A DNA stretch of 64,000 nt from a virus. Positions 13,444 to 51,619 of this stretch are shown one piece after another. The position numbers and the translations under genes were made by a program. Each line of letters opens with the position of its first letter. Within the stretch, counting starts at the first letter, position 1. Location of the stretch: positions 1 through 64,000 of IMG/VR virus record IMGVR_UViG_3300005340_000040; one strand, given 5' to 3'. The notes below the pieces were generated by a model. The model was given only the letters and a program-made list of their open reading frames with translations. It was not told the origin of the DNA and made no database searches.

Positions 13444-13449
13444 CCGGGG

Positions 13450-31111: not shown

Positions 31112-32272
31112 CTAGATGATCCCCTTCAACGCTTCGTCGTACGCAACGTTGATCCGCGCCTGGCTGTAGCGATCAACGATGGTTCGTTGCAGGTCCTTCG
31201 CCCACTGGGTGGGGATGGAGCTGTTGTGGCGGAACTTCACGATCCTCTTCTTGAAGTCATCCTCGGAGGGGTACGCCCAGCGGGCACCCTTGACGAAGAT
31301 CTGGCCGTCGATGCGCGAGGCCGGCACGGCGCGCAGCTGGTGGTAGATGCTCACGTACTTACCGTGCTGCAGGAAGTCCAGGTGACCCGACCATCCCGTT
31401 GCGACGATCGGGAGACCAGACGCCGCCGCCTCGAGGATCGGCAGGCCGTACCCCTCACCGTGGGTGAGTGATACGAGCGCCTTGACCTGGGGGTGACGGT
31501 AGAGGGCGGCGACCTCCCCATCGGACATGTCGCCGTGCAGCAGGTGGATCTTCGGGCCTGGGCGGCCCGCCCTCACCTCGGCGGCGAGGCCCGTGATGAG
31601 GTTCGTCGTCAGCATGCGGTCGATCAGGCTGTTTCGTCCAACGTTCGTCTTGATGACGATCCCCACCTGAGGATCGTCTCGGAACGCTTCGCACAGCCAC
31701 TTGATCGTGTAGAAAATGTTCTTACGATCGCTGTCGGGATCGCTGCCGGTGAGTTGGCCGAAGACCAAGAAGTTGAATGGCGTGGAGAACATGGGTAGAT
31801 CAACAGCGCTTCCGTCGACGATGGCGTTGCAGTACGCCTCGGGGACCACGCTCAGCGCCGGCACGGTGAGGTTGCCCAACGAACCCAGGCAAGATCGAGC
31901 ATGCTCCGACGGCACGATGACCGCTGACATGCGGTTGCAGGCCTCGACCCACTGGGGATTGCAACGGTCAGCTTCCACCATGGCTGACACACCCACGTTG
32001 GTCGACGATAGCTTCGGGTCCCACTCGTTCGGCAGCTGCAGCTGCACGGTGGCATCGCATGGGTGGTCAGCCTTGACCGACCGGTCCATGATCTCGCCAA
32101 TGAGGCCACCGTGCATGGACCGGTCCAGCAGCCACGGGGTGTCGCCCCACGCCAGCGTCGAGAAGCGCACGTTGATGTCATTTCGGCCCAGCAACCAACG
32201 GGCCAGCTGGCGAGCGTGCACGCCGTAGCCCGACTGCGTCAGCACGGGCGCTCGTAGGACGACCGTCTTCAT
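31112..32272 (-). CDS. GT4-family glycosyltransferase
   Basis: A GT-B enzyme of retaining type: the N-terminal domain begins MKTVVLRAPVLTQSGYGVHA, and the C-terminal domain has the donor-site motif HGEGYGLPILEAAASG (E-x7-E) near residues 281-296. ATG 32272 overlaps the previous stop (TGATG). With its neighbour it forms a GT pair at the end of the glycan locus nearest the tail genes. Donor and acceptor unknown. Confidence 0.82.
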   Translation of the reverse strand: MKTVVLRAPVLTQSGYGVHARQLARWLLGRNDINVRFSTLAWGDTPWLLDRSMHGGLIGEIMDRSVKADHPCDATVQLQLPNEWDPKLSSTNVGVSAMVEADRCNPQWVEACNRMSAVIVPSEHARSCLGSLGNLTVPALSVVPEAYCNAIVDGSAVDLPMFSTPFNFLVFGQLTGSDPDSDRKNIFYTIKWLCEAFRDDPQVGIVIKTNVGRNSLIDRMLTTNLITGLAAEVRAGRPGPKIHLLHGDMSDGEVAALYRHPQVKALVSLTHGEGYGLPILEAAASGLPIVATGWSGHLDFLQHGKYVSIYHQLRAVPASRIDGQIFVKGARWAYPSEDDFKKRIVKFRHNSSIPTQWAKDLQRTIVDRYSQARINVAYDEALKGII

Positions 32273-33519
32273 CAGATCTCCACACCTACCCACCGGGGGT
32301 TTCGTTGCTGCGACCAACCATCGCACAGCTGCTGCAGGGTGCGATCCCAATCGTTGATCATCCTGTCGATTGGATAGTCGCGCAGCGCATGCTCCCGGCA
32401 CCTGTGGCCCAGCTCGCGCCGCCGCTCGGGCCCGAGCTCGTGCATCTGCATGAACGCTCTAGCGACCGTCTCATGCGAAACGAAGTCCTCGTAGATGTAG
32501 GGGACCAGCTGCTGGCCCACCAACGATCGCACCTCGGGCTCGAGCGCGATGCCGTACTGCTCGCCTGTCCTGTGGTCCTCGACCTGGCGCGTTAGGCCCC
32601 CGGTCTTCAACGCGATGATCGGGTTGCCCGCCATCATCATCTCGAGCGTCGGTAGGCCGAAACCCTCGTTGCACGAGCGGTTCACCAACGTGTCGCCCAC
32701 GTTGTAGAGGCAGTTCATCTCCGGGAAACCGACGCGGTCCTTCGAGAAGACGACGTGATCCTTCATGTGCAGCATGTCGAGGACGTGGTGGAGGTTCGGC
32801 CCCTCGGGATCCATCGGATCCGTGTGCATCACCAGCGTGGCTCGCCTGTGACCGTGCACGCGTTCAAGTTCACCGAGGAACTGTTTGAACGAGACGATGA
32901 TGTCGCTCGGCATCTTGCGTCGGGCATTGCGGCTCACGAACAGGACGACGAAGTGATCGAGGCGTTCAGGGCCCAGCAGCGCACGTTTCAGGCGCATGCG
33001 CTCATCGTCGGGCAGCGGAAAGAACAGTTCGCTGGGAACAGCGTGCGGTACGTAGTGCGTCTTCTCCGGGAATCGCTGGTGCACCATCTCGTAGGTGGGC
33101 CAGTTGATGCAGTTGACCAGGTCGGTCGCCTGGTAGAGGACGCGGTTGAACTCGGGCCACGGCGGGTTGTCCCACAGGTGGTTGTAGGCGATGGGGCAGA
33201 TCTGGTGCACCTCATCCTCCATCTCCCAGACCCAGATGAACTGGCGTGGGTCCGTGAAGAGGAGCAGCACGTCCGGTCGCTCGACGGCCAGCGTCATGCG
33301 CAGGAGGTTCTTGTCACCGAAGCCGTTCGTGGGCTTGATGATGAAGTCGTCGGTCACCTTGATCGTGTCGTAGCTGTCGTGCCGGATCGCGCCCCCGAAG
33401 CAGCGGAACGTGTAGCGGCCCGTCCCGAGCAGGCCTTGGATCAGGTAGCGCGCCTGCGTGCCGACCCCCGACGTGGAGAGCGGATGGTCCGAAAGCATCA
33501 GGATCTTCTTCTTTTCCAT
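32272..33519 (-). CDS. GT4-family glycosyltransferase
   Basis: GT-B fold: start MEKKKILMLSDHPLSTSGVG, linker and Rossmann block FVVLFVSRNARRKMP near 193-207, and the donor motif NEGFGLPTLEMMMAG near 285-299. 415 residues, normal length. The 57 bases upstream to the nuclease gene contain no clear terminator. Donor and acceptor unknown. Confidence 0.82.
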   Translation of the reverse strand: MEKKKILMLSDHPLSTSGVGTQARYLIQGLLGTGRYTFRCFGGAIRHDSYDTIKVTDDFIIKPTNGFGDKNLLRMTLAVERPDVLLLFTDPRQFIWVWEMEDEVHQICPIAYNHLWDNPPWPEFNRVLYQATDLVNCINWPTYEMVHQRFPEKTHYVPHAVPSELFFPLPDDERMRLKRALLGPERLDHFVVLFVSRNARRKMPSDIIVSFKQFLGELERVHGHRRATLVMHTDPMDPEGPNLHHVLDMLHMKDHVVFSKDRVGFPEMNCLYNVGDTLVNRSCNEGFGLPTLEMMMAGNPIIALKTGGLTRQVEDHRTGEQYGIALEPEVRSLVGQQLVPYIYEDFVSHETVARAFMQMHELGPERRRELGHRCREHALRDYPIDRMINDWDRTLQQLCDGWSQQRNPRWVGVEI

Positions 33520-34464: not shown

Positions 34465-34496
34465 CCTTCATCTGTAACCACGGATCTACCGTCAGT

Positions 34497-34700: not shown

Positions 34701-34757
34701 GTGCTGTAATCAGTGCCTCGTGCTGCGCACCTTGGGCGCATCGCCCGATGGTGGCTG

Positions 34758-34830: not shown

Positions 34831-34838
34831 GAGCTGCT

Positions 34839-36673: not shown

Positions 36674-36687
36674 TCGTCTCCTGAGCG

Positions 36688-37723: not shown

Positions 37724-37767
37724 CCGGCGCTTAAGCCGGTAATTCACCCCACGTTCACGTGGTGGGG
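37724..37767 (-). promoter_or_regulatory. Two hairpins and a TACCGG element between the dehydrogenase and NadM genes
   Basis: Read on the minus strand, CCCCAC...GTGGGG (arms 37762-37767 and 37747-37752) overlaps the dehydrogenase stop; then TACCGG (37741-37736) runs into CCGGC-TTAAGC-GCCGG (37724-37739). The first could end transcription, the second fits the promoter-plus-hairpin pattern seen elsewhere. Confidence 0.35.
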
Positions 37768-38768
37768 TTCTGAACCTTCCGCGTCACGGCCCTGCCCACC
37801 ATGCGCTCCCAGTCGCGGTGTTCGGGCGCCACCACCTCGAGGTTCTTCGCCCAGAGGGCCTCCATCACCGTAGGCTGCACCCTCATGCTCCGGGCCAGGT
37901 ACGTCAGCGCGTTGAGGTCCTTCGGGAAGCAGTGGCCTCGCGCGCCGGGGACGCCGTCGGCCCCGGGGACGTTCATGTGCGAACCTCCCAGGCGCCGGTC
38001 GAGCTTCGCGTACTCGAGGACCTTATCGTAGTCGATGTTCATCCCAGCAGCGTCGAGCGCATCGCAGACCTGGGCAAGCTCGCAGCTGAGGATGACGCGC
38101 GCCGCGAGCTGGACGTTGGTGAAGTACTTCACCATCTCAGCCGTGGTGCTCGACGTCTTGATGATGGGGACGGTGGGGAACGCGCTCTGGAAAAGGAGCT
38201 TCACCCTGTTGATGTGGGGCCGTGGCCCGCCCAGCACGATCCTGGTCTGGTTGCGCATGTCGTCCAGCGCGTTCGCCTCGGTCAGGAACTCGGGGTTGAA
38301 GACGACGCGCAGGCCCGTCCCAGCGAACTGGGCGTTCCAGCGCTCCGTCGAACCGGGCGGCACCGTCGACTTGACGACGGCGATGCGCTCGCCGGGGACC
38401 GAGCTGAGCTCGTTGAGGACCCGCTCGACGATCGACAGGTCGGCCTCGCCGCTCTCGTGCATGGGGGTCGGGAGGCACACGAAGAAGATGCCGCTGAACC
38501 AGCTGAACGTTTCGCACGATTGCACGAAGTTCTGGATGGCCGTGCCCTCGCTTGGTTCATTGGGATCCTGTGAGGAGGGGACGCCCGCGAGCTCGAGCAA
38601 CCTCTTCTTGTCGCCGAGGATGGCTGCGTTTCCAGGGACGGTGCCGCCGATCGCGATCTTCCCAACCTCCTTGTCGTGGACGTACACGGTGAGGCCTCGC
38701 TCGGCCAGCACCGTGGTCAACGACCCACCGACGAACCCCTGGCCTATGACGGCAACGCCCTTCTTCAT
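37755..38768 (-). CDS. UDP-glucose/GDP-mannose dehydrogenase-family protein
   Basis: An NAD-dependent nucleotide-sugar 6-dehydrogenase: N-terminal Rossmann VAVIGQGFVGGSL (residues 5-17), VKSTVPPGSTERW near 129, FNPEFLTEANALDD near 152, and catalytic Cys in GARGHCFPKDLNAL near 276-289. At 337 residues it is shorter than usual (380-450), so the C-terminal sugar-binding domain is reduced. It would oxidise a UDP- or GDP-sugar to the uronic acid for the glycan locus. Confidence 0.85.
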   Translation of the reverse strand: MKKGVAVIGQGFVGGSLTTVLAERGLTVYVHDKEVGKIAIGGTVPGNAAILGDKKRLLELAGVPSSQDPNEPSEGTAIQNFVQSCETFSWFSGIFFVCLPTPMHESGEADLSIVERVLNELSSVPGERIAVVKSTVPPGSTERWNAQFAGTGLRVVFNPEFLTEANALDDMRNQTRIVLGGPRPHINRVKLLFQSAFPTVPIIKTSSTTAEMVKYFTNVQLAARVILSCELAQVCDALDAAGMNIDYDKVLEYAKLDRRLGGSHMNVPGADGVPGARGHCFPKDLNALTYLARSMRVQPTVMEALWAKNLEVVAPEHRDWERMVGRAVTRKVQNPTT

Positions 38769-38790
38769 GGTTCCTTCTCTACATCCTGGC

Positions 38791-38895
38791 CTAGAATTTT
38801 GATCTGCCCGATGAATCTCCTGCGAACAACGATCTCGCTTCGCCCACGGGGTACTCTCGACGCGATTCTTCGATGAACTTCACGCCAACGTTCAT
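38791..38895 (-). CDS. 34-aa peptide coupled to the upstream glycosyltransferase
   Basis: ATG 38895 overlaps the glycosyltransferase stop (ATGA) and follows a strong GGGAGGT. The product, starting MNVGVKFIEESRREYPVGEA, is short and charged. The ribosome site and the overlap are the same as for real genes of this operon. Role unknown. Confidence 0.5.
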   Translation of the reverse strand: MNVGVKFIEESRREYPVGEARSLFAGDSSGRSKF

Positions 38896-39824
38896 GGGCA
38901 CCTCCCGTGCGCTCCGGTCAGCTCGACCAAGCGTGTTGCCGTTTCCCTCCAGGCATCGCTGGCCCGAATATTCGAGACCGTGCGATCGATGCAACCCTGG
39001 CGTTGTTCCGGATCAATTCTCTGGATGCCCTCAATGATGGCGGGCACGTCGGCTGGTGTGGTGTAGCAGCGCACCGTCTCAAGGCCAGCGTAGTAGGGTT
39101 CGCTCCCACGGCCCTCGTTACGGACCGTGAAGCACCCACGGGCCGCGGCCTCCACGTCCTTCACCCACAGGCCATCGGAGAGGTTCATGCGTTCATTTCC
39201 GACGTCGACGGGGTGATCCTCACTGTGGACGAAGATCCGCATCGTCGACAGCACGTTCAGGTAGTTCGGGTACGAAAGGCCGTTGCCGGCGATGATGTGC
39301 GGGTGGATGCCCATCCCCTCCAGCTGGGAGAAGAGCCGTGCCCGGTGTGGGTGCACGGATCCCACGAACCCCACGTCGATGCAGCGGTCGACGTGGGCCG
39401 GAGCGCTCGAGCAGTAGCGCGGCATGATGCCCATCCGCACGAACGTGCCCGGCATGCCGCGGCGGGCGATGAGGTCGGCCCACGCGACAGTTGTCACAGC
39501 GATGGCCTTGACGTTGAGGAGCTCACACGCACGTTCGTAGGTGCCCCGGTAGGGCGAGCCGGTTCGGAAGGCCTCCCAAGGGTCCTGATCGTAGATGACC
39601 AACGGGGTGTCGCCCAAGGCCGACGCCAGGCGATCGACGACGCGGTGCAGCGTGCGCTGCCGAAGGCGACAGACGACGCCGTCGAACCCACGCTGGGTGG
39701 GCAGCTCGTCCAGAGCCAGCGTCATGACGCCCGGCGTGGCGTGTAGGCACGAATGGAGCTGGTGCGCGAAGCAGTTGCTGCGGGCGTACTCCAGGCTGTC
39801 GACGAGGTCGACGATCCTCGTCAT
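38892..39824 (-). CDS. CgeB-like glycosyltransferase
   Basis: A GT-B type protein of 310 residues. Visible blocks: DVGFVGSVHPHRARLFSQL near 157-175, a SYPNYLNVLSTMRIFVHSED block near 190-209, NLSDGLWVKDVEAAARGCF near 219-237 and YTTPADVPAIIEGI near 261. This pattern matches the spore-protein YkvP/CgeB glycosyltransferase group. Start overlaps the neighbouring stop by four bases (ATGA). Sugar and acceptor unknown. Confidence 0.72.
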   Translation of the reverse strand: MTRIVDLVDSLEYARSNCFAHQLHSCLHATPGVMTLALDELPTQRGFDGVVCRLRQRTLHRVVDRLASALGDTPLVIYDQDPWEAFRTGSPYRGTYERACELLNVKAIAVTTVAWADLIARRGMPGTFVRMGIMPRYCSSAPAHVDRCIDVGFVGSVHPHRARLFSQLEGMGIHPHIIAGNGLSYPNYLNVLSTMRIFVHSEDHPVDVGNERMNLSDGLWVKDVEAAARGCFTVRNEGRGSEPYYAGLETVRCYTTPADVPAIIEGIQRIDPEQRQGCIDRTVSNIRASDAWRETATRLVELTGAHGRCP

Positions 39825-40561
39825 TCGCCCGCCAGGCCAGCGATGAGCTCATCGTACCGGTCAAGCGCCGTGCGCGCCGCGGCCTGGAACCGCTCATCGA
39901 CGTAGTTGAATCCCCCGGCTGTGAAGCCTGGAGCGAGCCCGGCACCGATGAGCGCCAGCGCACGATGGCGGTCTCGGTGGCGAAGCCAGGCTGAACGTAC
40001 CCGCATGATCACGCTAGCCTGGCCCTTGAGGGCCCGGTGCAGGCCGTAGTGCAGCGCCTGGACGTCGGTCGGGTTGAACGCATGGTAGCCCGCAGGGCTC
40101 AGGCGCTCGGGGACCCCGTCGGCCTTGACGACGACGTCATGGTCGACGTCGATGCCCCGGTCGCAGAAGAGGTCGCTCTCCGTGTCGTTGAACGTGACGC
40201 GCGGGGAGAAGCAGTTGAGCCCGTTGATGCTGCCGTCGGTGAAGTAGTCGAGCAAGGGTGCCTGGATCCCAGTGATCCTTGGGTTTGCCCGCATCATCCT
40301 CCAGAGCTCGAGCAGCACCTCGTCGTGGGCTAGGACGGTGTCAGCGTCCACCTTGACGAACATGCTGCACCCAACCTGCGCCTCGCGCCACGCATGCCAG
40401 AGCGCATTGTGCGCTTCCTTCTCGGGCAGGCCCGAGAAGGTGCTGTGTTGGACGACGACGCCTCGTTGGCGTCGCACCGCGTCCTCGCATGCCGGGAAGT
40501 CGCCCTCGCCCGAGTGCAACGTACCCACGAAGACCCGTGGAAAGGTACCTAGGTCGCCCAA
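39821..40561 (-). CDS. GT-A type glycosyltransferase
   Basis: 246 residues with a metal-binding DxD in MFVKVDADTVLAHDEVL near 72-88, an upstream FSGLPEKEAHNALWHAW block near 43-59 that is typical of GT-A nucleotide-sugar sites, and TGIQAPLLDYFTDG near 103. A single-domain inverting enzyme is likely. It overlaps the GNAT gene by 13 bases. Confidence 0.7.
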   Translation of the reverse strand: MGDLGTFPRVFVGTLHSGEGDFPACEDAVRRQRGVVVQHSTFSGLPEKEAHNALWHAWREAQVGCSMFVKVDADTVLAHDEVLLELWRMMRANPRITGIQAPLLDYFTDGSINGLNCFSPRVTFNDTESDLFCDRGIDVDHDVVVKADGVPERLSPAGYHAFNPTDVQALHYGLHRALKGQASVIMRVRSAWLRHRDRHRALALIGAGLAPGFTAGGFNYVDERFQAAARTALDRYDELIAGLAGE

Positions 40562-41070
40562 CCGTCCCTCAGCATGTACATCAGCACCTGGTCCCAGAAG
40601 CGCCCGTCGCGCCTCAACGACTGCACAGCGCGCCCCTCCTCCCTGAACCCCAGCTTATGGTACACGCGCAGGGCAACGTGGTTGTACTCGGCCGTCGTCA
40701 ACGAGACGCGGTGGAGCTCCATGCCGTCGAAGCAGCGCTGCAGCATCAACGTCCACATCGACGTCGCTAGCCCACGACCGCGCCAGTCGCGATGGATGTC
40801 AGCGCCCACGCCGCAGTTGCCGTTGTGGAGGTCGATGTCGTAGAACTTCGTGAGGCCCACGGACGCGCCACCCACGGTGAAGATCAGCCTCAACTGCCGC
40901 TGGTCCTGCGACAGGGCATGCCACCAGCGCAGGTGCTGGTCCATGGTGATGGGATGTGGGTGCGTCACGTGCCGAAGCACCTCGGGGTCGTTACGGAGGT
41001 CGATCAGGAAGCTGTGATCATCGTCGCCGACGGGGCGCAGCCCATGGTCGTGGGGTACGCTGAACCTCAC
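40549..41070 (-). CDS. GNAT N-acetyltransferase, PseH-like
   Basis: GTG 41070 overlaps the aminotransferase stop (GTGA) and has GGAG upstream; a longer ATG start at 41106 would overlap 40 bases. The GNAT fold is clear: DLRNDPEVLRHV near 22-33, GADIHRDWRGRGLATSMW (acetyl-CoA loop) near 87-104 and ALRVYHKLGFREEGR near 131-145. In this position it would acetylate the amino-sugar made by the two upstream genes, the third step of pseudaminic-acid or bacillosamine-type pathways. Confidence 0.8.
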   Translation of the reverse strand: MRFSVPHDHGLRPVGDDDHSFLIDLRNDPEVLRHVTHPHPITMDQHLRWWHALSQDQRQLRLIFTVGGASVGLTKFYDIDLHNGNCGVGADIHRDWRGRGLATSMWTLMLQRCFDGMELHRVSLTTAEYNHVALRVYHKLGFREEGRAVQSLRRDGRFWDQVLMYMLRDGWAT

Positions 41071-42218: not shown

Positions 42219-42221
42219 CTG

Positions 42222-43271
42222 TTACTCCTGCCTGTTGGTTGCGATCTCCTCGATCAGGAGGCCCTTGAACCGCTCCAGCGGAGCATCCACCACGCCCAGC
42301 GCGGTCAGGTGCTGCAGCAGCTGTTCGGGCGACATCACCCAGCTCGAGCTCGAGCAGGTGAATCGCTCGTTCGCGCCTGAGATGAACGCAGGCTGGATGA
42401 TGTGGTAGCGACCGGATCTGTGTTTCTCGGTGCGCACCGATTCCGACTCGTTGATCAGGTCCTCGTGCAGCTTCTCGCCGGGCCTGAGCCCGATGACCTT
42501 GATCGTCTTCGAGTACTTCGTAGCGAAAATCTCCGCCAGGTCGCCGATCCGCATTGCGGGCAGAAGGGGGACCCATGTTTGGCCCGACGCGCCGTCCTTG
42601 AGCGCGGCCTCGATCAGGTTCACGCTGTCGTCGAGCGTCATCAAGAAGCGCGTCATGTTCGGATCGGTCACCGTCAGCTGTTGGCAGTGCATGCCCTGGT
42701 GTTTGAAGAGCGGGATGATGCTGCCACGTGATTCAAGGACGTTTCCGTAGCGGACCGCGAGGAAGCGCACGCCGGGCCTGCCCCCGCGTGCTTGGCTGGT
42801 GACGATGCGTTCCGATATGGCTTTGCACATCCCGTAGACGTTCACCGGTGAGCATGCCTTGTCGGTGCTCACGAACAGCACGCTGTGCGGGGGTAGCTGC
42901 GACCGGTTGACGGCCGCGACGACGTTCTGCGTGCCGATCAGGTTGGTCATGACGCTCTCGTCGGGGCTCAGCTCGCAGGTGTCGACCTGCTTCAACGCCG
43001 CAGCTACGATGATGGTCCCCGGCAGGTACTGCCTGATGACGTCCTCGATGCGTCCCCGGTCTCTGATGTCGCCGACGTAGAAGCGCAGGTCGGAAGCGGG
43101 TCTGCCGGCCATCATCTCGTTGCGTATCGTCCAGTGCTTCGCCTCGTCCCTCGAGAGCACGGCCACCTCGTGGTGGGGCAGCAAGCGCTCAATCAGCTTC
43201 CGGCCCAGGGAGCCCGTGCCGCCGATGATCAACACACGATCAGAACGAGGATCGCACATGCTACCGAACAC
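42222..43271 (-). CDS. UDP-GlcNAc 4,6-dehydratase-like (PseB/CapD family)
   Basis: An extended SDR enzyme: NAD motif IIGGTGSLGRKL (near 15-26), DIRDRGRIEDVI near 69, FVSTDKACSPVNVYGMCKAISE near 134-155 holding the catalytic Thr/Asp-Lys and YxxxK, then AVRYGNVLESRGSIIPLF near 170. Those last blocks are typical of the PseB/FlaA1 group. GTG 43271 overlaps the preceding stop; ATG 43259 is a good alternative. Expected product: a UDP-4-keto-6-deoxy amino sugar. Confidence 0.88.
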   Translation of the reverse strand: MFGSMCDPRSDRVLIIGGTGSLGRKLIERLLPHHEVAVLSRDEAKHWTIRNEMMAGRPASDLRFYVGDIRDRGRIEDVIRQYLPGTIIVAAALKQVDTCELSPDESVMTNLIGTQNVVAAVNRSQLPPHSVLFVSTDKACSPVNVYGMCKAISERIVTSQARGGRPGVRFLAVRYGNVLESRGSIIPLFKHQGMHCQQLTVTDPNMTRFLMTLDDSVNLIEAALKDGASGQTWVPLLPAMRIGDLAEIFATKYSKTIKVIGLRPGEKLHEDLINESESVRTEKHRSGRYHIIQPAFISGANERFTCSSSSWVMSPEQLLQHLTALGVVDAPLERFKGLLIEEIATNRQE

Positions 43272-44083
43272 TACCCCATGGCCGTCACCGTGTAACGATC
43301 GCGCGGTACGATGGAATCGACGCGCGTGGTGCGGTACCCGAGCTGCGCTAGCACGCTGGGATGGGTCCAGGAGCCCGTGATGGCCTCCGTTCCGTGGGGA
43401 TTCATGCTGCAGTTGAACATCCCGCCGTCGAGAAGCGCCATGTTCGGGCTCCTGTCGTGGTACAACCGCTGGAAGTCGAGCTCGGTGAAGCTGCCCATTC
43501 GGGCCAACGAACCGAAGCAGTCCACCATGGTGGCGTACCTGTTGAGGGCGGGAAGCTGCGTGAGGAAGTTTGTCGACCAGAACCTGCCCTCGACGTTAGC
43601 ATGCTCCACGATCGCGTTCGTGACCTTGTTGAGGTGCGACTGCCAGAGGCCGCGCCGCGAGGCTTCGGTAGGCCTGTCCTTGTCGTAGAGGTGCTTGTCG
43701 GCCACGGAGTACTCGTGCAGCCGCATCCCACCGATGCCGGGGTTCCTGTCCAGGAAGTCGACGCAGGCCGGCAGCATGGCCATGTCGTAGTGCACCATGT
43801 CGGACTCTATGACGTAGGTGTAGCGTGGAGCATCGTCGAAGCACCGCTCCAACCACCAATCGATGGCCGACCAGTACCCCACGTTGGCGCTGGCCACGTA
43901 CCGGCGCTCGAAGGGGCGCAGCAGCCGGTCGACGCCCGGCACGGTCGATGCGTTGTCGAAGACGGTCAGCGATCCCATCAGGCTCGCGGGCAGCTGCTGC
44001 TGCAGGTTGTCGACGACGCTCTCGAGCAGCTCGTACCTTGACCTCTCCAGACAGCACGTCACCAGGAGCAGCTGGACGTTCAA
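43271..44083 (-). CDS. GT-A type glycosyltransferase
   Basis: TTG 44083 overlaps the previous stop (TTGA) and follows GAGGGG, the same coupling as the GTGA and ATGA pairs here; the upstream ATG at 44137 would create a 57-base overlap. The product (MNVQLLLVTCCLERSRYELL...) has a GT2-like start, SLTVFDNASTVPGVDRLL near 39, YVIESDMVHYDMAMLP near 91 (DxD-like ESD) and a C-terminal NPHGTEAITGSWTHP. 270 residues. Sugar unknown. Confidence 0.68.
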   Translation of the reverse strand: MNVQLLLVTCCLERSRYELLESVVDNLQQQLPASLMGSLTVFDNASTVPGVDRLLRPFERRYVASANVGYWSAIDWWLERCFDDAPRYTYVIESDMVHYDMAMLPACVDFLDRNPGIGGMRLHEYSVADKHLYDKDRPTEASRRGLWQSHLNKVTNAIVEHANVEGRFWSTNFLTQLPALNRYATMVDCFGSLARMGSFTELDFQRLYHDRSPNMALLDGGMFNCSMNPHGTEAITGSWTHPSVLAQLGYRTTRVDSIVPRDRYTVTAMG

Positions 44084-44982
44084 CGTAGCCCCTCGATGAG
44101 CTTGCGATAGGGTGCGTACCCGTGCGGCAGCTGCCACCCATCCACGTTGGGAACGCAGGGGATCGCATCGTCCACGAGGTCAGCGATCGCGGTGGGCGGT
44201 AGCAGCTGTTCAGCGATCCCCACGGGGCGGGAGACCACGGGGACGCCGAGCAACCCGGCCTCGATCAACGCCTGGGGGCCGCCCTCATGGCGTGCCGTGA
44301 CGGGGTACAGGTCCAGCGTCTGGTACAGCTCGTTGACGGCGTCCTGGTCTGGGCGCTCGACGTAGGTGAAGGGGATCCTGGCCTCCCTTAGCCTGCGGAC
44401 GACGTAGTGCCGGCGCCATCCGGCGAGGACGACGTGGAGCTTGGGCTGCCTCGTCGCCAGGCGCTCGAGCATGTCGACCAGGAGGTCCGGGCCCTTCTCG
44501 AGCTTCGGGCTCCGCAGGTCATGGCCCTCGGTGTCCCTCTGGAACGAACCGACCAGGTAACCATCCAGCGGCAGCCCGTGCTTTTTCCTGAGCCCTTCTC
44601 GCGTCCCGGTCCGCCGCCAGAGCCGCTGGTTTGCCCAGTACCGCACGACGTGGATGGGCTTGCTCGTCAGCGCGCTGACCTGCGCGTGGGCGCGATCGTT
44701 GTACACGTGGTACGCCGTCGTCACGGAATCCCGGCGCATGAACTCTTCGAGCTCACGAGCACCGAACTTCTCGGGCACGATGTGGTGAACCGTCGTCAGC
44801 ACCTGCCTCGACCTGAGCAGGTGCATGGGGAGGTGCTCCCAGCAGAAGTCGGCCAGCAACCAGATCACGTCAGCGTGCGCTGGGTCGTGCACGGTGATGT
44901 CGCCGTTGTCGTCCGTCCATTCGTCGACGAAGCGATCGATGATCCAGCTCTCGTTCGCCGGTAGGACGTAGACGCGCTTCAC
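44080..44982 (-). CDS. GT4-like glycosyltransferase
   Basis: GTG 44982 overlaps the previous stop (GTGA) with GGAG upstream. The 300-residue product starts MKRVYVLPANESWIIDRFVD, has YLVGSFQRDTEGHDLRSPK near 143-161, LHVVLAGWRRHYV near 182 and the donor-site motif HEGGPQALIEAGLLG near 236-250. A GT-B retaining enzyme. Part of the tightly coupled GT run. Confidence 0.78.
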   Translation of the reverse strand: MKRVYVLPANESWIIDRFVDEWTDDNGDITVHDPAHADVIWLLADFCWEHLPMHLLRSRQVLTTVHHIVPEKFGARELEEFMRRDSVTTAYHVYNDRAHAQVSALTSKPIHVVRYWANQRLWRRTGTREGLRKKHGLPLDGYLVGSFQRDTEGHDLRSPKLEKGPDLLVDMLERLATRQPKLHVVLAGWRRHYVVRRLREARIPFTYVERPDQDAVNELYQTLDLYPVTARHEGGPQALIEAGLLGVPVVSRPVGIAEQLLPPTAIADLVDDAIPCVPNVDGWQLPHGYAPYRKLIEGLR

Positions 44983-45902
44983 AGGACCTCCTTCAGGACG
45001 TCGACGTACCGTGCAGCGCACGAGGAGATGCTGACGTCGGGGACGGTCGAGTAGTCGAGCTGCGAACGATCGGGGAGCTCGACGATGCCCGACAGGTCCA
45101 CGGGAGGGGGGTTCTCGTAGTCGACGAGCTCGTAGTCGTACGGCAGCTCGTCGATGACCAGCCCGTAGCCCCCGATCAGCTCCTTCGTCCCGCCGACGCT
45201 GCTGCAGACGACGGGCGTCCCCTGGGCCAACGCCTCGACGACGACGTTCGGGCAGTGGTCGGCCCAGGCGAGGTGGATCATCCAGTTGGCGACCGAGTAC
45301 ACCTGGGCGCACGTTGCCGGATCGACCGACCCCGTGTAGAAGACGTGGGGGCCCGAGGCTCGATGGTCCGGCGCAGCGCCCATGATGATGAGGCAGCTGT
45401 TGGGCATCCTAGCACGCAGCTGCTCGAACAGCCTGACGTTGTCCTGGAGCCTCTTCTGCGGGTGCCAGTTCGAGCTGCAGACGTAGATCCTGTCGTAGGT
45501 CGCCGCCATCTCCTCCAACCGAGGGATCGTGACGCGGTCGACGCGGGCGACACCAGCACCATTACGCACCACGATCCCCCGCTTGGGCTCCCCCCACCAC
45601 CGCAGGGTCATCCCGCGGTCAAAGCTCGACTGCCAGACGACGGCGTCGGCCCGGGCGTAGAGGTCCCGGATGCCGGCGTTCTTCGACTCAAACTCGTGGG
45701 GGGCGAACCAGATGCCGTCGAGGCGCTGGACGACCTTCCTGGCGAGGGGAGCTCCCGTCGGCTCGATGAAGACGATCGATGCGTCAGCCTCGGAACCGCC
45801 GACGATCGCATGGCCCATGCGCTGGAGCTCTGCGCCCAGCCGGGCAGCGAACGTGCCGGGGCCCGTCCGGAGGCCTGCCGCGCAGTCGATGTGCAGCTTC
45901 AC
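44979..45902 (-). CDS. GT4-family glycosyltransferase
   Basis: GTG 45902 overlaps the preceding stop (GTGA). GT-B pattern: TGPGTFAARLGAELQRMGH near 13-31, RIYVCSSNWHPQKRL near 137-151, and donor motif WADHCPNVVVEALAQGTPV near 214-232. 307 residues, a compact version of the family. Donor and acceptor unknown. Confidence 0.8.
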   Translation of the reverse strand: MKLHIDCAAGLRTGPGTFAARLGAELQRMGHAIVGGSEADASIVFIEPTGAPLARKVVQRLDGIWFAPHEFESKNAGIRDLYARADAVVWQSSFDRGMTLRWWGEPKRGIVVRNGAGVARVDRVTIPRLEEMAATYDRIYVCSSNWHPQKRLQDNVRLFEQLRARMPNSCLIIMGAAPDHRASGPHVFYTGSVDPATCAQVYSVANWMIHLAWADHCPNVVVEALAQGTPVVCSSVGGTKELIGGYGLVIDELPYDYELVDYENPPPVDLSGIVELPDRSQLDYSTVPDVSISSCAARYVDVLKEVL

Positions 45903-46267
45903 GACCGGCGCTTGATCTCGTCGATCAACGGCTTGGTGAAGTCGGTGCCGCGCAGCATGGTCGCCAACAGGGCGATCTCCTTGGTCTCGATGGATGCCAA
46001 GCTCGCACGCTGCGTGAAGATGTGGGGGTTGAGCTCCTGGTGGCCGTTGACCAGCGTGGCGTCGTAGTACTGCTGGGCGAGGTAGTTCATCGATTCGTTG
46101 CTGATGTGGACGTTCGAGCGCGTCAGCACCTCGACCAGGGTGTCGAAGATGATCGTGTACACCTTGATGCAGGTGACCAGGTCGAGATCCTTGCTGAGCA
46201 GCTCGCTCTGGAGCTTGTGGACCAGCAGCTTGCTGATGATCGCGTGGAAGCTTTTCTCATCGTCCAT
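45899..46267 (-). CDS. Small helical protein, paralogue of the next gene upstream
   Basis: ATG 46267 with AGGAAA in front; an ATG at 46282 is also possible. The product is helical. Its second half (ISNESMNYLAQQYYDATLV ... EIALLATMLRGTDFTKPLID) aligns with that of the 46257 gene (LSREAIWWLTDQYFKNATV ... VILLRDLFNETSLRASLSAE), so the two are probably paralogues. Both lie among glycosyltransferases. No family recognised. Confidence 0.6.
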   Translation of the reverse strand: MDDEKSFHAIISKLLVHKLQSELLSKDLDLVTCIKVYTIIFDTLVEVLTRSNVHISNESMNYLAQQYYDATLVNGHQELNPHIFTQRASLASIETKEIALLATMLRGTDFTKPLIDEIKRRS

Positions 46268-46655
46268 CGTTTTTCCTCGCATCGATCTCTGCGCTCAGGG
46301 AAGCACGTAGGCTGGTCTCGTTGAACAGGTCGCGCAGCAGGATGACGTCGGCCAGGGGCAGCTGGTCCAGGCGGTACTCGTTGATGACGACCATCGTCCC
46401 CACCGGGACAGGCGCCGTGGTGCCCACCGTAGCGTTCTTGAAGTACTGGTCCGTCAACCACCAGATGGCCTCCCGAGACAACGGACGGCTGCTACGCTTG
46501 AACGTGCCGTCGATCAGCTCGTGGATCGAGTTGCGCACCTCGCGCAGCAGGGTAGGATCCAACATCCTGTCGTTGAACCTGCTCACCCTCTCGTTGAGTC
46601 GCTGGGTCAGGAGTTCAGCGAATCGCTGCGTTGGTCGTTGTGCCTGCATGCTCAC
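46257..46655 (-). CDS. Small helical protein, paralogue of the 45899 gene
   Basis: Start at GTG 46655 or ATG 46649, inside the 3' end of the upstream glycosyltransferase. N-terminal helices with many Arg (RFAELLTQRLNERVSRFNDR), then the shared C-terminal pattern described for its paralogue. Ends EIDARKNDGR, with the stop overlapping the next gene. Unknown function; a scaffold or regulator for the glycan enzymes is speculation. Confidence 0.6.
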   Translation of the reverse strand: MSMQAQRPTQRFAELLTQRLNERVSRFNDRMLDPTLLREVRNSIHELIDGTFKRSSRPLSREAIWWLTDQYFKNATVGTTAPVPVGTMVVINEYRLDQLPLADVILLRDLFNETSLRASLSAEIDARKNDGR

Positions 46656-47559
46656 TCAGGAAGGTTATACACCTCTGGATGCATGAGTGCCAGCTCTGTA
46701 GCTGGTAGCTGTTCACGGGACGTTCGCAGGCGAGCAACCGGGTAAGCAGCTCATCCCAGCTTGCGTACGCGGCCGCCGCACCGGCAAACTCCACAGCGCC
46801 TCCCCCATCGACGTGCACGTACGTCGGCAGCCCGCACGCCAGCGCTTCGAGGACGTGGTTGGGACCCGGGTCGAAGCGTGACGCTGACACGTACACGTCG
46901 TAGCGCCCGAGCTCGGCTCCCAGCGCACGGCCCTGCAGGGGCGGCACGGTTCTCGAGTGCTTGAAACTGCCTCTATCGCGGCCCACGTACGTGAAGGTGA
47001 ACTTCTCTGGTTCCCGCCCCGCGAGGGCGTCCAGCTCGTCGTAGACGTCGAAACCCTTGAGGTAATTGTCGCTCCAGTGGTGAGTGACGACGTTCACTCG
47101 TCCGTTGCCGAGTTTCGGCGCGGGTGCGAAGACGTTCGGATCGACGCCGTTGACAACGACGGCCTGCTCGCGGCAGCGCCAGCCCTTATCGTTGAAGTAG
47201 CCCTGCAACCAGTTCGACACGAATATCGTCCCAGTCACGTGCGAGGAGAGCTCGATCAACGAGCGATCGACGCACCACGTTCCCTTGCGTGCATCGTTCT
47301 CGTTGACCCGCACGACCAACCGAACGTCCTTCAGGTGCGCTACCGAATGGCGGTAGGCCACGAGCTGCTGCGCTGATAGGTGCGAACTGTCGCCGTCGAA
47401 CCCAACGATGAGGATGACGTCGGGGATGATGCGCTGCATCTCCTCGGTGGAGACGAGCGTCACTCCCATCGACGGCGCTAGCTCGTGGAGGGCGTTGATC
47501 AGGCGCGCTCCGCCGCCCCAGGGACCGCTGATCGGCGAACGGTTGACGTGGACCAGCAT
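46615..47559 (-). CDS. GT4-family glycosyltransferase
   Basis: ATG 47559 overlaps the preceding stop (TGATG). The GT-B features are PISGPWGGGARLINALHEL near 9-27, TIFVSNWLQGYF near 112, VVNGVDPNVFAP near 138 and a donor motif FDPGPNHVLEALACGLPTY near 232-250. The first Glu of the usual E-x7-E is Asp/Pro here. 314 residues. Confidence 0.78.
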   Translation of the reverse strand: MLVHVNRSPISGPWGGGARLINALHELAPSMGVTLVSTEEMQRIIPDVILIVGFDGDSSHLSAQQLVAYRHSVAHLKDVRLVVRVNENDARKGTWCVDRSLIELSSHVTGTIFVSNWLQGYFNDKGWRCREQAVVVNGVDPNVFAPAPKLGNGRVNVVTHHWSDNYLKGFDVYDELDALAGREPEKFTFTYVGRDRGSFKHSRTVPPLQGRALGAELGRYDVYVSASRFDPGPNHVLEALACGLPTYVHVDGGGAVEFAGAAAAYASWDELLTRLLACERPVNSYQLQSWHSCIQRCITFLSEHAGTTTNAAIR

Positions 47560-48305
47560 CAGCGCACGTACCCTCTCGCACGGAGGAACAGCGCTTCGTC
47601 ACGCTGGAAGCGGGCGTCTTCCGTCGCGTACGTCTCGGGGACGTCGTCGATCGTGTAGTGGTACGTGCACCGCGGTAGGAACGCCCTGCGACGAGCGTTC
47701 ACCAGGACGGGCAGGTACACCGCCTGGTCGCCGGCTCGTCGCACGTACCCGCCGTCCGAACCCCGGAAGTTCTCGTCGGTGACGTCGTCGATGAGCCACC
47801 TCCTGAACGTCTTGAGATGGCTTGACACCCACGGGTGGGCGTACGGATCAGCACCGTCGGGCATGGGACCGCTGATGTTCTTGTCGCTGTAACCCCACCG
47901 GTGGGCCGTCCAGAGCGCATCGCAGGATGTTCGACGGTAGGCCGAGTCGAGCATCGCTAGGGCGTCGACGTCGGTCAGCCAATCGTCGGCGTCGATGCGG
48001 CACACGATGTCGTCCGGAGCGCAGTCACCCTTGATCATGGTGATGACGTTCTCCACCTCCCACTTCTTCCGCTCGTTAGCGTGGAAGACCAGCTTGCATG
48101 GGCCCTCCGGGCCCAGGAAGGTACGAAAGCGCTCGATGCACCCAAGCGATTGCTCGAGCTGATCGGGATCCGACACGTCGTCGGTGATGACGACCTTCCA
48201 GTTGGAGTACGACTGCGCAACGATGGAGGCTAGCATCTGCGGCAGCGTGCGGCTCATGTTGTAGCTGCACGCAACGAAGACGAAGCGGTTATCACCAGTC
48301 GTCAC
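47559..48305 (-). CDS. GT2-family glycosyltransferase
   Basis: GTG 48305, inside the last 14 bases of the methyltransferase gene. GT-A/GT2 landmarks: FVACSYNMSRTLPQMLASIV near 10-29, WKVVITDDVSDPDQ near 36 and the metal site VCRIDADDWLTDVDAL near 100-115. 248 residues, a single catalytic domain. It should transfer one sugar with inversion. Confidence 0.82.
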   Translation of the reverse strand: MTTGDNRFVFVACSYNMSRTLPQMLASIVAQSYSNWKVVITDDVSDPDQLEQSLGCIERFRTFLGPEGPCKLVFHANERKKWEVENVITMIKGDCAPDDIVCRIDADDWLTDVDALAMLDSAYRRTSCDALWTAHRWGYSDKNISGPMPDGADPYAHPWVSSHLKTFRRWLIDDVTDENFRGSDGGYVRRAGDQAVYLPVLVNARRRAFLPRCTYHYTIDDVPETYATEDARFQRDEALFLRARGYVR

Positions 48306-49017
48306 GGGCAGCTCCGGGCTTCGACAGCAGCACCTGGCCGTAGTCGACCTGGTCGTCCGACAGGCCGCGGTCGTCGAGGAACATGCGGCGATCCATCACG
48401 ATGAGCTCCTTGCTGGCGTCGTCGATCTCATCGATTAACCGGCTGCACTGGATGCCGGGATCACCCTTCGTGGGTAGGTGGTAGTCGTCGAACAGCAGGA
48501 AGCGGTTCCACCTGTCCTTCGTGTTGAGCCAGTCGAACTTCGTCCCCTCGTACGAGTGGTCGCCGTCGATGTACACGAGGTCGAACGAACCGGCTAGGCC
48601 TGGCAGGACGGCCTGCGACGTGCCGCGGGTGAACTGCACCATGTCGAACCATTCCTTCGGGAAGACGCCGCGGAGCGCCTGTAGGTACTGCTCGTCGAAG
48701 GTGGGATCGACGGTGATGATGCTGCCCACGGTGCCGGCGTCGTGGAACGCCCGAGCAGCGCAGAACGTAGCGTAGCCGCGGCCGAAGCCGATCTCAAGCA
48801 TCGACGACAGGTTGTGCTGCCTGATGAGGTGGTAGATCAGGATCCCGCGTTCGTAGTTGGAGCGGTAGAAGGCACCGTGACGCCGGTAGTTCGGGTCGTT
48901 GGGTTGGCGCGTGCGCTTTGCTGTGAACTCCCCCACGTAGTCAAAGTCGCCCATGACGACCGCGTCGAGGGTGACGCCCATCTCCTCGAGCTTCCGCTTG
49001 ATGCCCACGGTCCTCAT
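48292..49017 (-). CDS. Class I SAM-dependent methyltransferase
   Basis: ATG 49017 overlaps the previous stop (ATGA). Motif I MLEIGFGRGYATFCAARAF near 73-91, motif II-like IITVDPTFDE near 100, DLVYIDGDHSYEGTKFDWL near 143-161 and FLLFDDYHLP near 171. The IDGDHSYEG block places it in the Methyltransf_24/CmcI-like group, which often O-methylates sugars or small molecules. In this locus a sugar is the likely substrate. Confidence 0.82.
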   Translation of the reverse strand: MRTVGIKRKLEEMGVTLDAVVMGDFDYVGEFTAKRTRQPNDPNYRRHGAFYRSNYERGILIYHLIRQHNLSSMLEIGFGRGYATFCAARAFHDAGTVGSIITVDPTFDEQYLQALRGVFPKEWFDMVQFTRGTSQAVLPGLAGSFDLVYIDGDHSYEGTKFDWLNTKDRWNRFLLFDDYHLPTKGDPGIQCSRLIDEIDDASKELIVMDRRMFLDDRGLSDDQVDYGQVLLSKPGAARDDW

Positions 49018-49589
49018 CGTGCCTTCACCCTCGTCTTCAACCCGTAGACGTACCCGTTTCGTGGACCAAGGTGATCATGACGCCGTAGCATGCCGCGATC
49101 GTACAGCTTCCTGAGGATGCTCGACAACGAGGACAGCTTCACCGGACCATCGTCCTCGATGTCGAGCCAACGTTTGATCTCAGATGCGCTTAGCATGGTC
49201 CCTGACCACGTGAGGACGTCGATCGTCCTACTACCGATCGTGCGAGGCTTGACCTTGGGTCCCCGCCATGCCGCTCCCAGGGAGCGATGTTCGATGGTGT
49301 GTTCCAGCCGGATCGCGTCCGCGATGCCGAGCCTCATCCCGTTGCTGATCCCCAGGTCGGTGTAGACCGCCGTCTTGTCCGCCCCTCGTCGCCAGGCGAA
49401 TCCCGCGTCGATGCCCAAGGTGCGCTCGTTGAGAACGCCGTCGTCCAGCACGCCCTCCTGGGTGTAGAGGCCGTGGCTTGCGAAGGGCGCTTCGCCCCGC
49501 AGCAGGCAGTCCCTCATGCATGCCCTCAGGTAGCGTAGGTTCACCTCCACGTTGCCGGCATACGGTGACTCGACGATCGTCCTCAGCAT
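49014..49589 (-). CDS. DUF7768-like (SLOG/deoxyribosyltransferase-fold) domain fused to a winged helix
   Basis: ATG 49589 with GGAG upstream. Residues 1-115 carry the small-phage pattern VESPYAGNVEVNLRYLRACM, then RDCLLRGEAPFASHGLYTQ and GVLDDGVLNERTLGIDAGF, followed by YTDLGISNGMRLGIADA. Residues 130-191 look like a winged helix (LSASEIKRWLDIEDDGPVK, SILRKLYDRGMLRRHDH). The first domain resembles nucleoside 2-deoxyribosyltransferases and SLOG proteins. The pair suggests a ligand-controlled regulator, although this is inference. Confidence 0.65.
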   Translation of the reverse strand: MLRTIVESPYAGNVEVNLRYLRACMRDCLLRGEAPFASHGLYTQEGVLDDGVLNERTLGIDAGFAWRRGADKTAVYTDLGISNGMRLGIADAIRLEHTIEHRSLGAAWRGPKVKPRTIGSRTIDVLTWSGTMLSASEIKRWLDIEDDGPVKLSSLSSILRKLYDRGMLRRHDHLGPRNGYVYGLKTRVKAR

Positions 49590-51619
49590 GCCACGATCTC
49601 CTTCATGCAGCCCGGCTGCTCTCGGCCCGGCTTGAGCGACGGCGTCGGCGTGATGCCGTCCCAGGGGCGATGCCACACCCAACCCCCGAGGATGCTTTCC
49701 ATGGAACGTGCACGAGCCTCGAGCATCTCGTCGGTCACCTGAGACCATGGAACGCCGAACATCATGTTGTTCTCAGCCGTGTCGGAGGCGTCCTTCCCCC
49801 ACAGGGCGTTCCAGTGGTTCTGCCAGTAGTCGCGGTAGAGCCGTACCTTGCGCGGGATGTCGTACCAGCTGTAGTGGAACGTGCAGGGAAGGCCCCGCGT
49901 CACCTGGTCGAACCACGCCTGGTACTGCTGCAGCGCGGCGGCGTCGCCTCCCATCGCTGCTCGGCGCGCCGCTTCGACCTGGGCCGTGTAGAAGGTGACG
50001 TGGGGCAGCACGTCGCCCGTTGAAGCGTCGATCATGTCGCAACCGTCCGTCCCCTCCGCGGCGAACGGGGTGCCGTCGGCGGCCGTTCGTCGCAGCTGCT
50101 TGGGGATCCCGTGCGTGATGCTGGGCAGGTTACGGCTCAGGCGCCACTTCCACGGCTGGACGTCGAGGCGAACCTTGTGGGGCCCGCCCCAGTACTCGAT
50201 GACGGGGAGCGCCATGATGTTCACCTCGCGTGGGATCGCGCGGCACAGCTCGGCGATCCTCGGTGCATCGTCCTCGTGAACGACCTCATCGGCGTCCATC
50301 TGCCAGCAGAACTCGCTGGTGCACATGGCCCGTGCCTCAGCCTTCTGCATGCCGTCGAAGACAGGGTGGCACTTGGCAGACCAGTTGCGCGGCACGATCC
50401 TGATGCGCAACCGCTTGTCGCGATGGGCGCCGTGCCATGCGTCGGGCAGCTCACAGTAGCGCTCTCCCGCTGCGATCGACAGGTGCACCCACGTCTTCAG
50501 GTCCTCGATGAGCTGGAGGGTTGCATGCGGGTAGGCAAGGTCGATCAGGACGTCGAGAGTTGCGTCCGTCGAACCCCCGTCGACCACGCAAACCTCATCG
50601 CAGAAACTCAGCATCGATGTCAGGCACTGGCGCAGCGGGTAGCCACCCCTCATGCAATTCAAGGCGGTCGTGTAGCCGGAGATGGTGGGACGGTAGTCCA
50701 TCATCCGCTTGATGCCGTTCCAGAACAAGCTACGGGCTGCGTAGAGGTACTCATGGATCGAGTCGACGTCATCGGTGTCGAACCACAGCTCACGGCGGTG
50801 CTGGACGTGGTCGTTGAGGTGCAGCGCACAGCCCAGCAGCTTCGCTTCGATGACCATGCGGGGGCAGGTGTCTCCTCCCCGCGGTAGGTACACGAACCCC
50901 TCAGCGCGTGATAGGCGGTCGAGCAGCTGGTCGTAGGGGAGGTCGTGCACGACCTCGTGGTCCCTGCCCGTCTCCGTGCACCATCGTTGGGCATCTTCCG
51001 TTCCCTTGATCCAGGAGGAGGATCCCAGGACGATCCAACCGTTCCGCGGTTCGGCGGATTGCTTGCTGCGTAGCAGCTTTATGAGGCCCAATGTCCGATC
51101 GTCGAAGACGCTGGACAGGACGACGTTGTCCTTCTCGGCGAGGAAGGGAAACATCGTCAGGTACCTTTCCTTCTGCGCTTCGCTCATCCACCACAGGCCC
51201 ATCGAGCCGTAGTAGAAGGCGCTCACGAGGTTCCCATGGGGCCTCTGGGCGCAGTCGCACGGTGTTCCAGCTGCGTGCATGTGCTTCTCGGGCGACCGTG
51301 CCTGGCAGTACTTGTAGTCGTACTCCACGATCGAGTAGCGCATGTTGGCGACGATGCTGGGGATCAGATCGGGGTTCAACCTGCTGAAGTTGCCGAAGAT
51401 CCAGAACCTGTCGACCCCCTCCCTGAGGAGGTCCATGGAAACGTCGCTGGACCTGACGCGGTGCACCTCGAACGGGCTCGAGTCGATGAGCGCCTGGGTT
51501 GTCAGCTCCGCTCCCCCCACGTACTCATCGACGAACATGTCAGAGACGAACACGATCCGAGCGCCGCTTGGGATGCGTGGGCCGCTGGAGAACACGCTTG
51601 ACGAAAAATCGACCACCAT
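49583..51619 (-). CDS. Two-domain glycosyltransferase (GT-B plus GT2), 678 aa
   Basis: Residues 1-315: GT-B-like domain (RIVFVSDMFVDEYVGGAELT near 21; NGWIVLGSSSWIKGTEDAQ near 192; GFVYLPRGGDTCPRMVIEAK near 237). Residues 318-600: GT2 domain (TTALNCMRGGYPLRQCLTSM near 322, VVDGGSTDATLDVL near 351, MDADEVVHEDDAPRIAEL near 439 with the metal-binding DxD). ATG 51619 is six bases behind TACCAT and lies in the palindrome CCACCATGGTGG, with no Shine-Dalgarno. It is the first gene of the glycan operon. It may add two sugars in succession. Confidence 0.78.
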   Translation of the reverse strand: MVVDFSSSVFSSGPRIPSGARIVFVSDMFVDEYVGGAELTTQALIDSSPFEVHRVRSSDVSMDLLREGVDRFWIFGNFSRLNPDLIPSIVANMRYSIVEYDYKYCQARSPEKHMHAAGTPCDCAQRPHGNLVSAFYYGSMGLWWMSEAQKERYLTMFPFLAEKDNVVLSSVFDDRTLGLIKLLRSKQSAEPRNGWIVLGSSSWIKGTEDAQRWCTETGRDHEVVHDLPYDQLLDRLSRAEGFVYLPRGGDTCPRMVIEAKLLGCALHLNDHVQHRRELWFDTDDVDSIHEYLYAARSLFWNGIKRMMDYRPTISGYTTALNCMRGGYPLRQCLTSMLSFCDEVCVVDGGSTDATLDVLIDLAYPHATLQLIEDLKTWVHLSIAAGERYCELPDAWHGAHRDKRLRIRIVPRNWSAKCHPVFDGMQKAEARAMCTSEFCWQMDADEVVHEDDAPRIAELCRAIPREVNIMALPVIEYWGGPHKVRLDVQPWKWRLSRNLPSITHGIPKQLRRTAADGTPFAAEGTDGCDMIDASTGDVLPHVTFYTAQVEAARRAAMGGDAAALQQYQAWFDQVTRGLPCTFHYSWYDIPRKVRLYRDYWQNHWNALWGKDASDTAENNMMFGVPWSQVTDEMLEARARSMESILGGWVWHRPWDGITPTPSLKPGREQPGCMKEIVAC

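Follow-up and report, generated by a model that had tools for sequence, protein, structure and literature searches.

The glycan locus described here lies on the minus strand of the window, the 64,000-nucleotide (nt) stretch analysed as a whole, which comprises bases 1 to 64,000 of the 67,862-base IMG/VR record IMGVR_UViG_3300005340_000040 and is a fragment of a virus genome. The locus combines ten glycosyltransferase (GT) genes with genes for sugar-nucleotide and accessory enzymes, in a myovirus with T4-like gp6 and gp25 and a gp55-like sigma factor. The window has a GC content of about 64 %, carries 30 clustered tRNA genes and one odd one, and gave no match in a megablast search against known phages. 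From 14686 to 51619 the genes lie on the minus strand, no plus-strand candidate there being convincing, and the ten GT open reading frames (ORFs) overlap tightly and show coding-like GC content at third codon positions; the largest gap in the GT block at 38892-51619 is at most 35 nt. A first-pass annotation had described an uninterrupted minus-strand run containing the glycan genes. The strand was confirmed, and the run includes other genes as well: 33577-37701 holds non-glycan genes (a PD-(D/E)XK nuclease, the odd tRNA, PTH2, a macro domain and an NMNAT-NUDIX fusion) and 49014-49589 encodes a non-glycan DUF7768 protein inside the run. The locus therefore consists of a GT pair (31112-33519) and a 14-kb block (37755-51619). 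Several genes start inside the longest ORF, and their corrected spans are 31112-32272, 44080-44982, 43271-44083 and 40549-41070. The genes are as follows, with E values after the family or structure names.

31112..32272, minus strand: GT31112, GT4-type, member of the core pair (PF00534 2.2e-7; PHROG 2170 8e-14); start corrected to 32272.
32272..33519, minus strand: GT32272, GT4-type, member of the core pair and the most conserved GT of the locus (PF13692 4.8e-9; NEGFG motif conserved).
37755..38768, minus strand: UDP-sugar dehydrogenase without the C-terminal UDP-binding domain (PF03721 7e-25; PF00984 3.5e-17).
38892..39824, minus strand: GT38892, GT-B-type candidate (PF13524 3.9e-4, below cut-off; 8 of 20 orthologues match, best 1.4e-6).
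39821..40561, minus strand: GT39821, GT-A fold (invariant KxDxD; AlphaFold2 pLDDT 94.7; Foldseek matches to GT-A transferases).
40549..41070, minus strand: GNAT acetyltransferase (PF13302 9.9e-19).
41067..42218, minus strand: DegT-family aminotransferase, sugar C4-type (PF01041 6.6e-80; PDB relatives 4zwv, CalS13 and ArnB).
42222..43271, minus strand: UDP-N-acetylglucosamine (UDP-GlcNAc) 4,6-dehydratase (PF02719 7.7e-77; closest PDB entry 4tqg, 3.3e-74).
43271..44083, minus strand: GT43271, probable GT-A, the weakest of the ten (invariant ESD; 3 of 23 orthologues match PF00535, best 2.6e-4).
44080..44982, minus strand: GT44080, GT4-type (PF00534 5.5e-10); start corrected to 44982.
44979..45902, minus strand: GT44979, GT4-type (PF13692 1.1e-13).
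45899..46267, minus strand: small conserved helical protein (in 13 of 13 contigs with the locus; AlphaFold2 pLDDT 92).
46257..46655, minus strand: second small conserved protein (12 orthologues at the same place, median identity 39 %).
46615..47559, minus strand: GT46615, GT4-type (PF13692 4.1e-4, below cut-off; PHROG 2170, glycosyltransferase, 7.6e-5).
47559..48305, minus strand: GT47559, GT2 (PF00535 1.1e-9).
48292..49017, minus strand: methyltransferase, Methyltransf_24 (PF13578 7.8e-17; present in 7 of 13 contigs).
49583..51619, minus strand: GT49583, 678-aa GT2 (PF00535 1.2e-6; D442xD444 invariant; N-terminal half conserved, fold unproven).
30009..30800, minus strand: neighbouring gp55-like late sigma factor (PHROG 234 6.8e-8), the yardstick of vertical inheritance.
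24849..26693, minus strand: neighbouring baseplate wedge gp6 (PHROG 219 1e-8), used to find relatives.

The GT calls were made with Pfam curated cut-offs, PHROGs, orthologue matches and, for GT39821, AlphaFold2 and Foldseek. Six of the ten proteins score above the Pfam cut-off, four as GT4/GT-B (GT31112, GT32272, GT44080, GT44979) and two as GT2/GT-A (GT47559, GT49583), and two more (GT38892, GT46615) fall below it and are supported by orthologues or PHROGs. The window proteins GT39821 and GT43271 had no Pfam match, and profile searches with both against PDB sequences returned nothing usable; the best Foldseek matches of the GT39821 model are glycosyltransferases (best E 2.8e-5). An eleventh GT domain is not claimed, as hhalign showed no relationship of the N-terminal half of GT49583, or of GT38892, to the GT32272 GT4 profile. 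All ten GT positions in the first-pass annotation thus hold glycosyltransferases or supported candidates, while its remark that one or two GTs are the norm in phages takes no account of the clusters of up to 15 genes of the cyanophage P-SSM2 type (PMC7824862).

The dehydratase, aminotransferase, acetyltransferase, UDP-sugar dehydrogenase and methyltransferase named in the same annotation were all recovered by Pfam. In the dehydratase the catalytic TDK and YxxxK residues (T136 D137 K138, Y146, K150) are invariant in 14 sequences. Its PDB scores were 253 bits for 4tqg, 183 for CapE, 172 for 2gn4 (a UDP-GlcNAc C6 dehydratase, which we take to be PseB/FlaA1) and 114 for WlaL/PglF; on these similarities it is nearer to the inverting (PseB/CapE/Mg534) than to the retaining (PglF) enzymes, and it is probably also a 5-epimerase. 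CalS13- and ArnB-like sugar aminotransferases, to which the DegT-family protein is related, act at C4. The GNAT is possibly a sugar N-acetyltransferase, although generic GNATs score better in the PDB search than PseH (4ri1), a weak match at 2.3e-4. Structure 4tqg, to which the dehydratase is nearest among solved proteins, is Mg534 of Megavirus chilensis, an established UDP-GlcNAc 4,6-dehydratase/5-epimerase making virion sugars (PMC10117803, PMC9614988). Full pseudaminic acid synthesis was considered and ruled out, since a NeuB/PseI-type synthase (PF03102) was matched in 0 of 32 related records, many of them fragments, with controls matching in 9 of 14 genomes. In the dehydrogenase, residues E160, K214, N218 and C280 are invariant (14 orthologues); it has no Pfam match to the C-terminal domain PF03720, and its orthologues are equally short (304-350 aa). 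The methyltransferase may possibly carry out sugar O-methylation, and the small protein at 45899-46267 had no PDB fold match at E<=0.001. The idea that the locus has its own sugar-nucleotide pathway stands as far as some synthesis goes and fails as to full autonomy, since host UDP-GlcNAc and, presumably, UDP-glucose are its starting materials.

When viral contigs were scanned, 80 baseplate loci and 41 dehydratase loci were recovered. Allowing for gains, losses and some rearrangement, about 20 related contigs (up to 369 kb) share the gene order GT49583, DUF7768, methyltransferase, GT47559, GT46615, the two small proteins, GT44979 and GT44080, followed by GT43271, dehydratase, aminotransferase, GNAT, GT39821, GT38892 and dehydrogenase. 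Presence and identity were compared in the 13 contigs that hold both ends of the region, and most core genes are present in 13 of 13. The pairwise protein identities of the locus genes track those of gp55 (r 0.42-0.95, all p<=0.005). Because its order is conserved in so many contigs, this is a real, conserved phage glycan-assembly locus and no chance acquisition. The syntenic loci range from 31 to 59 % GC, against about 64 % for the window, so the locus outlasts changes in base composition, which suggests that its acceptor is carried by the phage. Accessory genes vary among the relatives and include UDP-galactopyranose mutase, GDP-mannose dehydratase, a formyltransferase, an RmlD-like reductase, extra GTs and methyltransferases. 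A separate pair of a GT4 and a polysaccharide pyruvyl transferase was seen in two relatives (G005:123845-126117, locus L135, and L158). Assignment of a host from contigs of metagenome-assembled genomes was abandoned, since the taxa conflict (Halobacteriovorax, Burkholderiaceae, Methylococcaceae, Pelagibacter, Flavobacteriales, WOR-3) and the contigs are probably misbinned phage.

The GT32272-GT31112 pair is present in every related baseplate locus that reaches far enough, with 54-77 % identity for GT32272, and forms one compact run with gp55 and the baseplate genes in which no gap exceeds 57 nt. A PD-(D/E)XK nuclease adjoins it throughout the clade. In locus L030 both GTs are fused in one 807-aa ORF, and in two others the GT32272 orthologue contains a full intein (CFAAGT start, VSN|C end, LAGLIDADG-like motifs; L053:1011-3446, L028:14-2143) inserted exactly at the NRSC|NEGFG catalytic motif. 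The cultured Flavobacterium phage immuto (host Flavobacterium sp. LMO8) and the Microcystis phage Mel-JY01 likewise carry the PD-(D/E)XK nuclease, orthologues of both GTs (immuto35A_89 and immuto35A_90 in immuto; that of GT32272 annotated as two ORFs in Mel-JY01) and then further GTs, and immuto has an aminotransferase orthologue as well; their other GTs are not orthologous to those of this locus, dehydrogenase and GNAT orthologues are absent and the dehydratase has a weak match only. LR756508 also carries a GT32272 orthologue.

The GT genes, the accessory trio and their joint conservation give good support to the proposal of the first-pass annotation that an oligosaccharide is built by the phage, which also makes some of the sugar nucleotides itself. 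Three acceptors had been suggested, namely virion protein, DNA and host envelope, and the sequence evidence favours virion protein and proves none of them. The reading preferred here, to which we assign roughly even odds (about 0.5), is a cytoplasmic phage pathway building an oligosaccharide with a virion protein as its most likely acceptor. The dehydratase/5-epimerase would convert host UDP-GlcNAc to UDP-4-keto-6-deoxy-L-HexNAc, and C4 amination followed by N-acetylation would give UDP-2,4-diacetamido-2,4,6-trideoxy-L-hexose, a product that stays an inference because the GNAT is generic and its PseH match weak. The short dehydrogenase would supply a uronic acid. The GT32272-GT31112 pair would start the chain on a conserved phage acceptor, the other GTs would extend and branch it, and lineage-specific genes would vary the sugars. 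The virion protein would receive its glycan in the cytoplasm, either ahead of assembly or in the course of it, and the resulting sugar coat could affect adsorption, stability or recognition. None of the locus GTs has a clear transmembrane-like stretch and the PF02397 initiating phosphoglycosyltransferase was matched in 0 of the 32 related records (controls matched, 9 of 14), which fits cytoplasmic, lipid-free assembly.

By analogy, a virion target is also suggested by Mg534, the closest solved dehydratase, as it belongs to a virus whose fibrils carry glycans made by the virus itself (PMC10117803). In giant viruses (Mimivirus, Megavirus, Moumouvirus, Tupanvirus) clusters of virus-encoded GTs with demonstrated fibril glycans are known (PMC10117803, PMC9614988). 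Like the present locus, these clusters combine GTs with a 4,6-dehydratase, aminotransferase, acetyltransferase and methyltransferase, one of them also including a short UDP-glucose dehydrogenase; they differ in their eukaryotic hosts and demonstrated glycans, the tailed phage being known from genes alone, and in that the 4-keto sugar here appears to go to an aminotransferase and not to a Mg535-type reductase. For mycobacteriophages, PMC12619734 cites Freeman 2023 for phage-encoded GTs that are believed to modify virion subunits in the cytoplasm once these have assembled; as presented there, these phages have few GTs with glycans demonstrated on capsid and tail tube, against about ten GTs with sugar-nucleotide genes here. 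Moraphages, which are large phages from aquatic habitats, have structural genes of T4-like type and share four core GT orthogroups; the description consulted (PMC12619734) mentions no sugar-nucleotide locus in them. The tight packing of the pair with gp55 and baseplate genes, the intein, the fusion and the joint conservation in a jumbo-myovirus clade would likewise agree with a virion acceptor.

Several points weigh against this reading. The proposed acceptor and glycan are predicted from genes, and the window phage is an uncultured fragment. The first-pass annotation named Ser/Thr/Asn-rich giant proteins encoded nearby as possible virion targets; the S/T content of the tail-region proteins, 17-18 %, is no evidence of O-glycosylation. 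The dehydrogenase, GT38892, GNAT, GT44080, GT47559 and GT49583 do not significantly track gp6 in the 10 contigs compared, and some of the locus genes may therefore have undergone exchange. The T4 late promoter TATAAATA is absent even with one mismatch, and late expression is therefore unproven. Host copies of a flippase and polymerase could serve a lipid-linked route, and relatives encode a hydroxymethylcytosine precursor enzyme, so that some locus GTs could act on DNA. In other expression scans, the octamer TTGAAGTA, 31-fold over-represented, was rejected as a promoter, all 8 copies lying inside coding genes on the opposite strand, and sigma-70 and terminator scans performed no better than shuffles.

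Remodelling of the host envelope (capsule, O-antigen or another surface glycan), for example for superinfection exclusion as proposed for cyanophages, is unlikely, although it has a parallel in jumbo cyanophages such as P-SSM2, whose 15-gene clusters of GTs and sugar-nucleotide enzymes are read as envelope-modifying (PMC7824862), and the accessory sugar genes of the present clade vary between relatives as in O-antigen loci. The P-SSM2-type capsular/lipopolysaccharide clusters resemble the locus as a large set of GT, epimerase/dehydratase and sugar-modifying genes in a jumbo myovirus; they are described as sporadic and polymorphic (PMC7824862), whereas the core here is present in 13 of 13 contigs and only accessory genes vary, a distinction that for P-SSM2 is drawn by description. 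The lack of PF02397 matches and of a clearly membrane-spanning locus GT argues against an envelope target, within a profile search that did not extend to the Wzx, Wzy and oligosaccharyltransferase (STT3) families. The core GT set is moreover kept with gp55 across 31-64 % GC; a set matched to the host should instead be replaced as the host changes.

It is rather improbable, though a serious alternative, that the sugars are built on phage DNA, as an oligosaccharide attached to hydroxymethylcytosine that blocks restriction and CRISPR nucleases. About ten GTs exceed the reported needs of DNA glycans, which are mono- to trisaccharides. The reading draws on reports of virus GTs placing diverse glycans on DNA (Pyle 2024, as cited in PMC12619734), on the nuclease beside the GT pair and on hydroxymethylases in the relatives. 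As in T4, with its glucosyl-hydroxymethylcytosine, close relatives (G003, G005, G012) encode a gp42-type deoxycytidine monophosphate (dCMP) hydroxymethylase, and others encode a MilA-like CMP hydroxymethylase (G014, with which G013 and G020 align). The G005 enzyme matches 1b49 (PDB) at 2.3e-72, those of G003 and G012 align with it at 54-69 % identity, and both types have Asp where thymidylate synthase (TS) has Asn. A diverged TS-fold protein occurs in all eight long full-locus relatives and in G032; the 68-kb record, being a fragment, gave no dCMP hydroxymethylase match of its own.

Against the DNA reading, the hydroxymethylase lies in a conserved cassette of its own, far from the locus (in G005 at 221-228 kb, against 27-55 kb for the glycan locus), with thymidine kinase, mostly a deaminase, and a nucleoside diphosphate (NDP)-sugar epimerase. 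In five genomes (G003, G005, G012, G020, G027) the cassette also holds a candidate GT-B of 445 aa (in G005 at 226599-227936), which reads like a GT-B and has no Pfam match. Judged by its genes, the cassette is probably a DNA hypermodification pathway, and with the epimerase and candidate GT at hand DNA modification probably has its own enzymes. In Pfam, the GTs of the locus either hit GT4/GT2 families or give no hit at all, and none matches the T4 AGT/BGT families. The GT pair is also found in G029 (320 kb), which has no TS-family match, and in immuto, whose TS matches, like that of LR756508, are all canonical-scoring; Mel-JY01 had no TS match by profile, though one gene is annotated thymidylate synthase. 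From these gene distributions the pair is decoupled from hydroxymethylcytosine, other DNA chemistries remaining compatible; a TET/JBP search matched none of its controls and was uninformative. Cassette loci were recorded at G005:221056-227936 (L140), L146, L147, L148 and L125-L128, and the candidate GT had no match in known phages.

Least probable is a mixed or other target, in which the pair and the remainder modify different acceptors (for instance a virion protein or small molecule for the pair, and host glycan or DNA for the remainder). In its favour, conservation reaches much further for the pair than for the remainder (immuto and Mel-JY01 have the pair with other GTs and without orthologues of most locus GTs, and G029 has it with a GT49583 relative and a dehydratase only), and in the window non-glycan genes stand between the pair and the 14-kb block. 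Against it, many genomes have the pair and the block close together, and the tracking of gp55 seen for the pair extends to most genes of the block.

Further features were noted around the locus. A GroEL-like protein at its edge (52259-53455, plus strand; PHROG 5725 1.5e-17) adjoins the locus in relatives too, and a 1089-aa tail-fibre-like protein (59930-63199, plus strand) has a C-terminus resembling an SGNH hydrolase by eye and no Pfam match. Between the GT pair and the block, a macro-domain protein and the NMNAT-NUDIX fusion (36155-37701; counterpart L084:18348-19949) are joined in relatives by an adjacent NAMPT, and a phage nicotinamide adenine dinucleotide (NAD+) salvage module therefore adjoins the glycan locus. 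One or two tRNA genes with an unusual anticodon loop lie between PTH2 and the PD-(D/E)XK nuclease (window copy 34757-34830, minus strand; relatives L003:1447-1605, L004:1418-1570, L036:2544-2616, L021:927-1075). The unusual loop is 8 nt long, contains UUCA and possibly reads UGA or UGAA, CUA amber-type tRNAs occur at the same place in L021, and these tRNAs are possibly conserved stop-codon or frameshift suppressors. Two RNA ligases (1124-2176 and 13435-14679, the second below the Pfam cut-off) flank the 30-tRNA cluster, an arrangement that suggests tRNA repair.

Most large phage glycan clusters known before were cyanophage modules of sporadic occurrence, interpreted as modifying the host envelope; here, a broad clade of jumbo phages keeps a core GT locus together with structural genes. 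Its coexistence with a separate DNA-hypermodification cassette suggests that phages can run two dedicated glycosylation systems. A fuller proposal, put forward tentatively, is that a conserved jumbo-phage lineage coats its virion with its own complex, lineage-variable oligosaccharide, including a rare diamino-trideoxy-L-hexose, apart from a second, DNA-glycosylating pathway. The cultured relative immuto makes the question of the acceptor testable. If the target is the virion, these phages would join the giant viruses as self-glycosylating, which would bear on adsorption, on phage neutralisation and on the discovery of enzymes.

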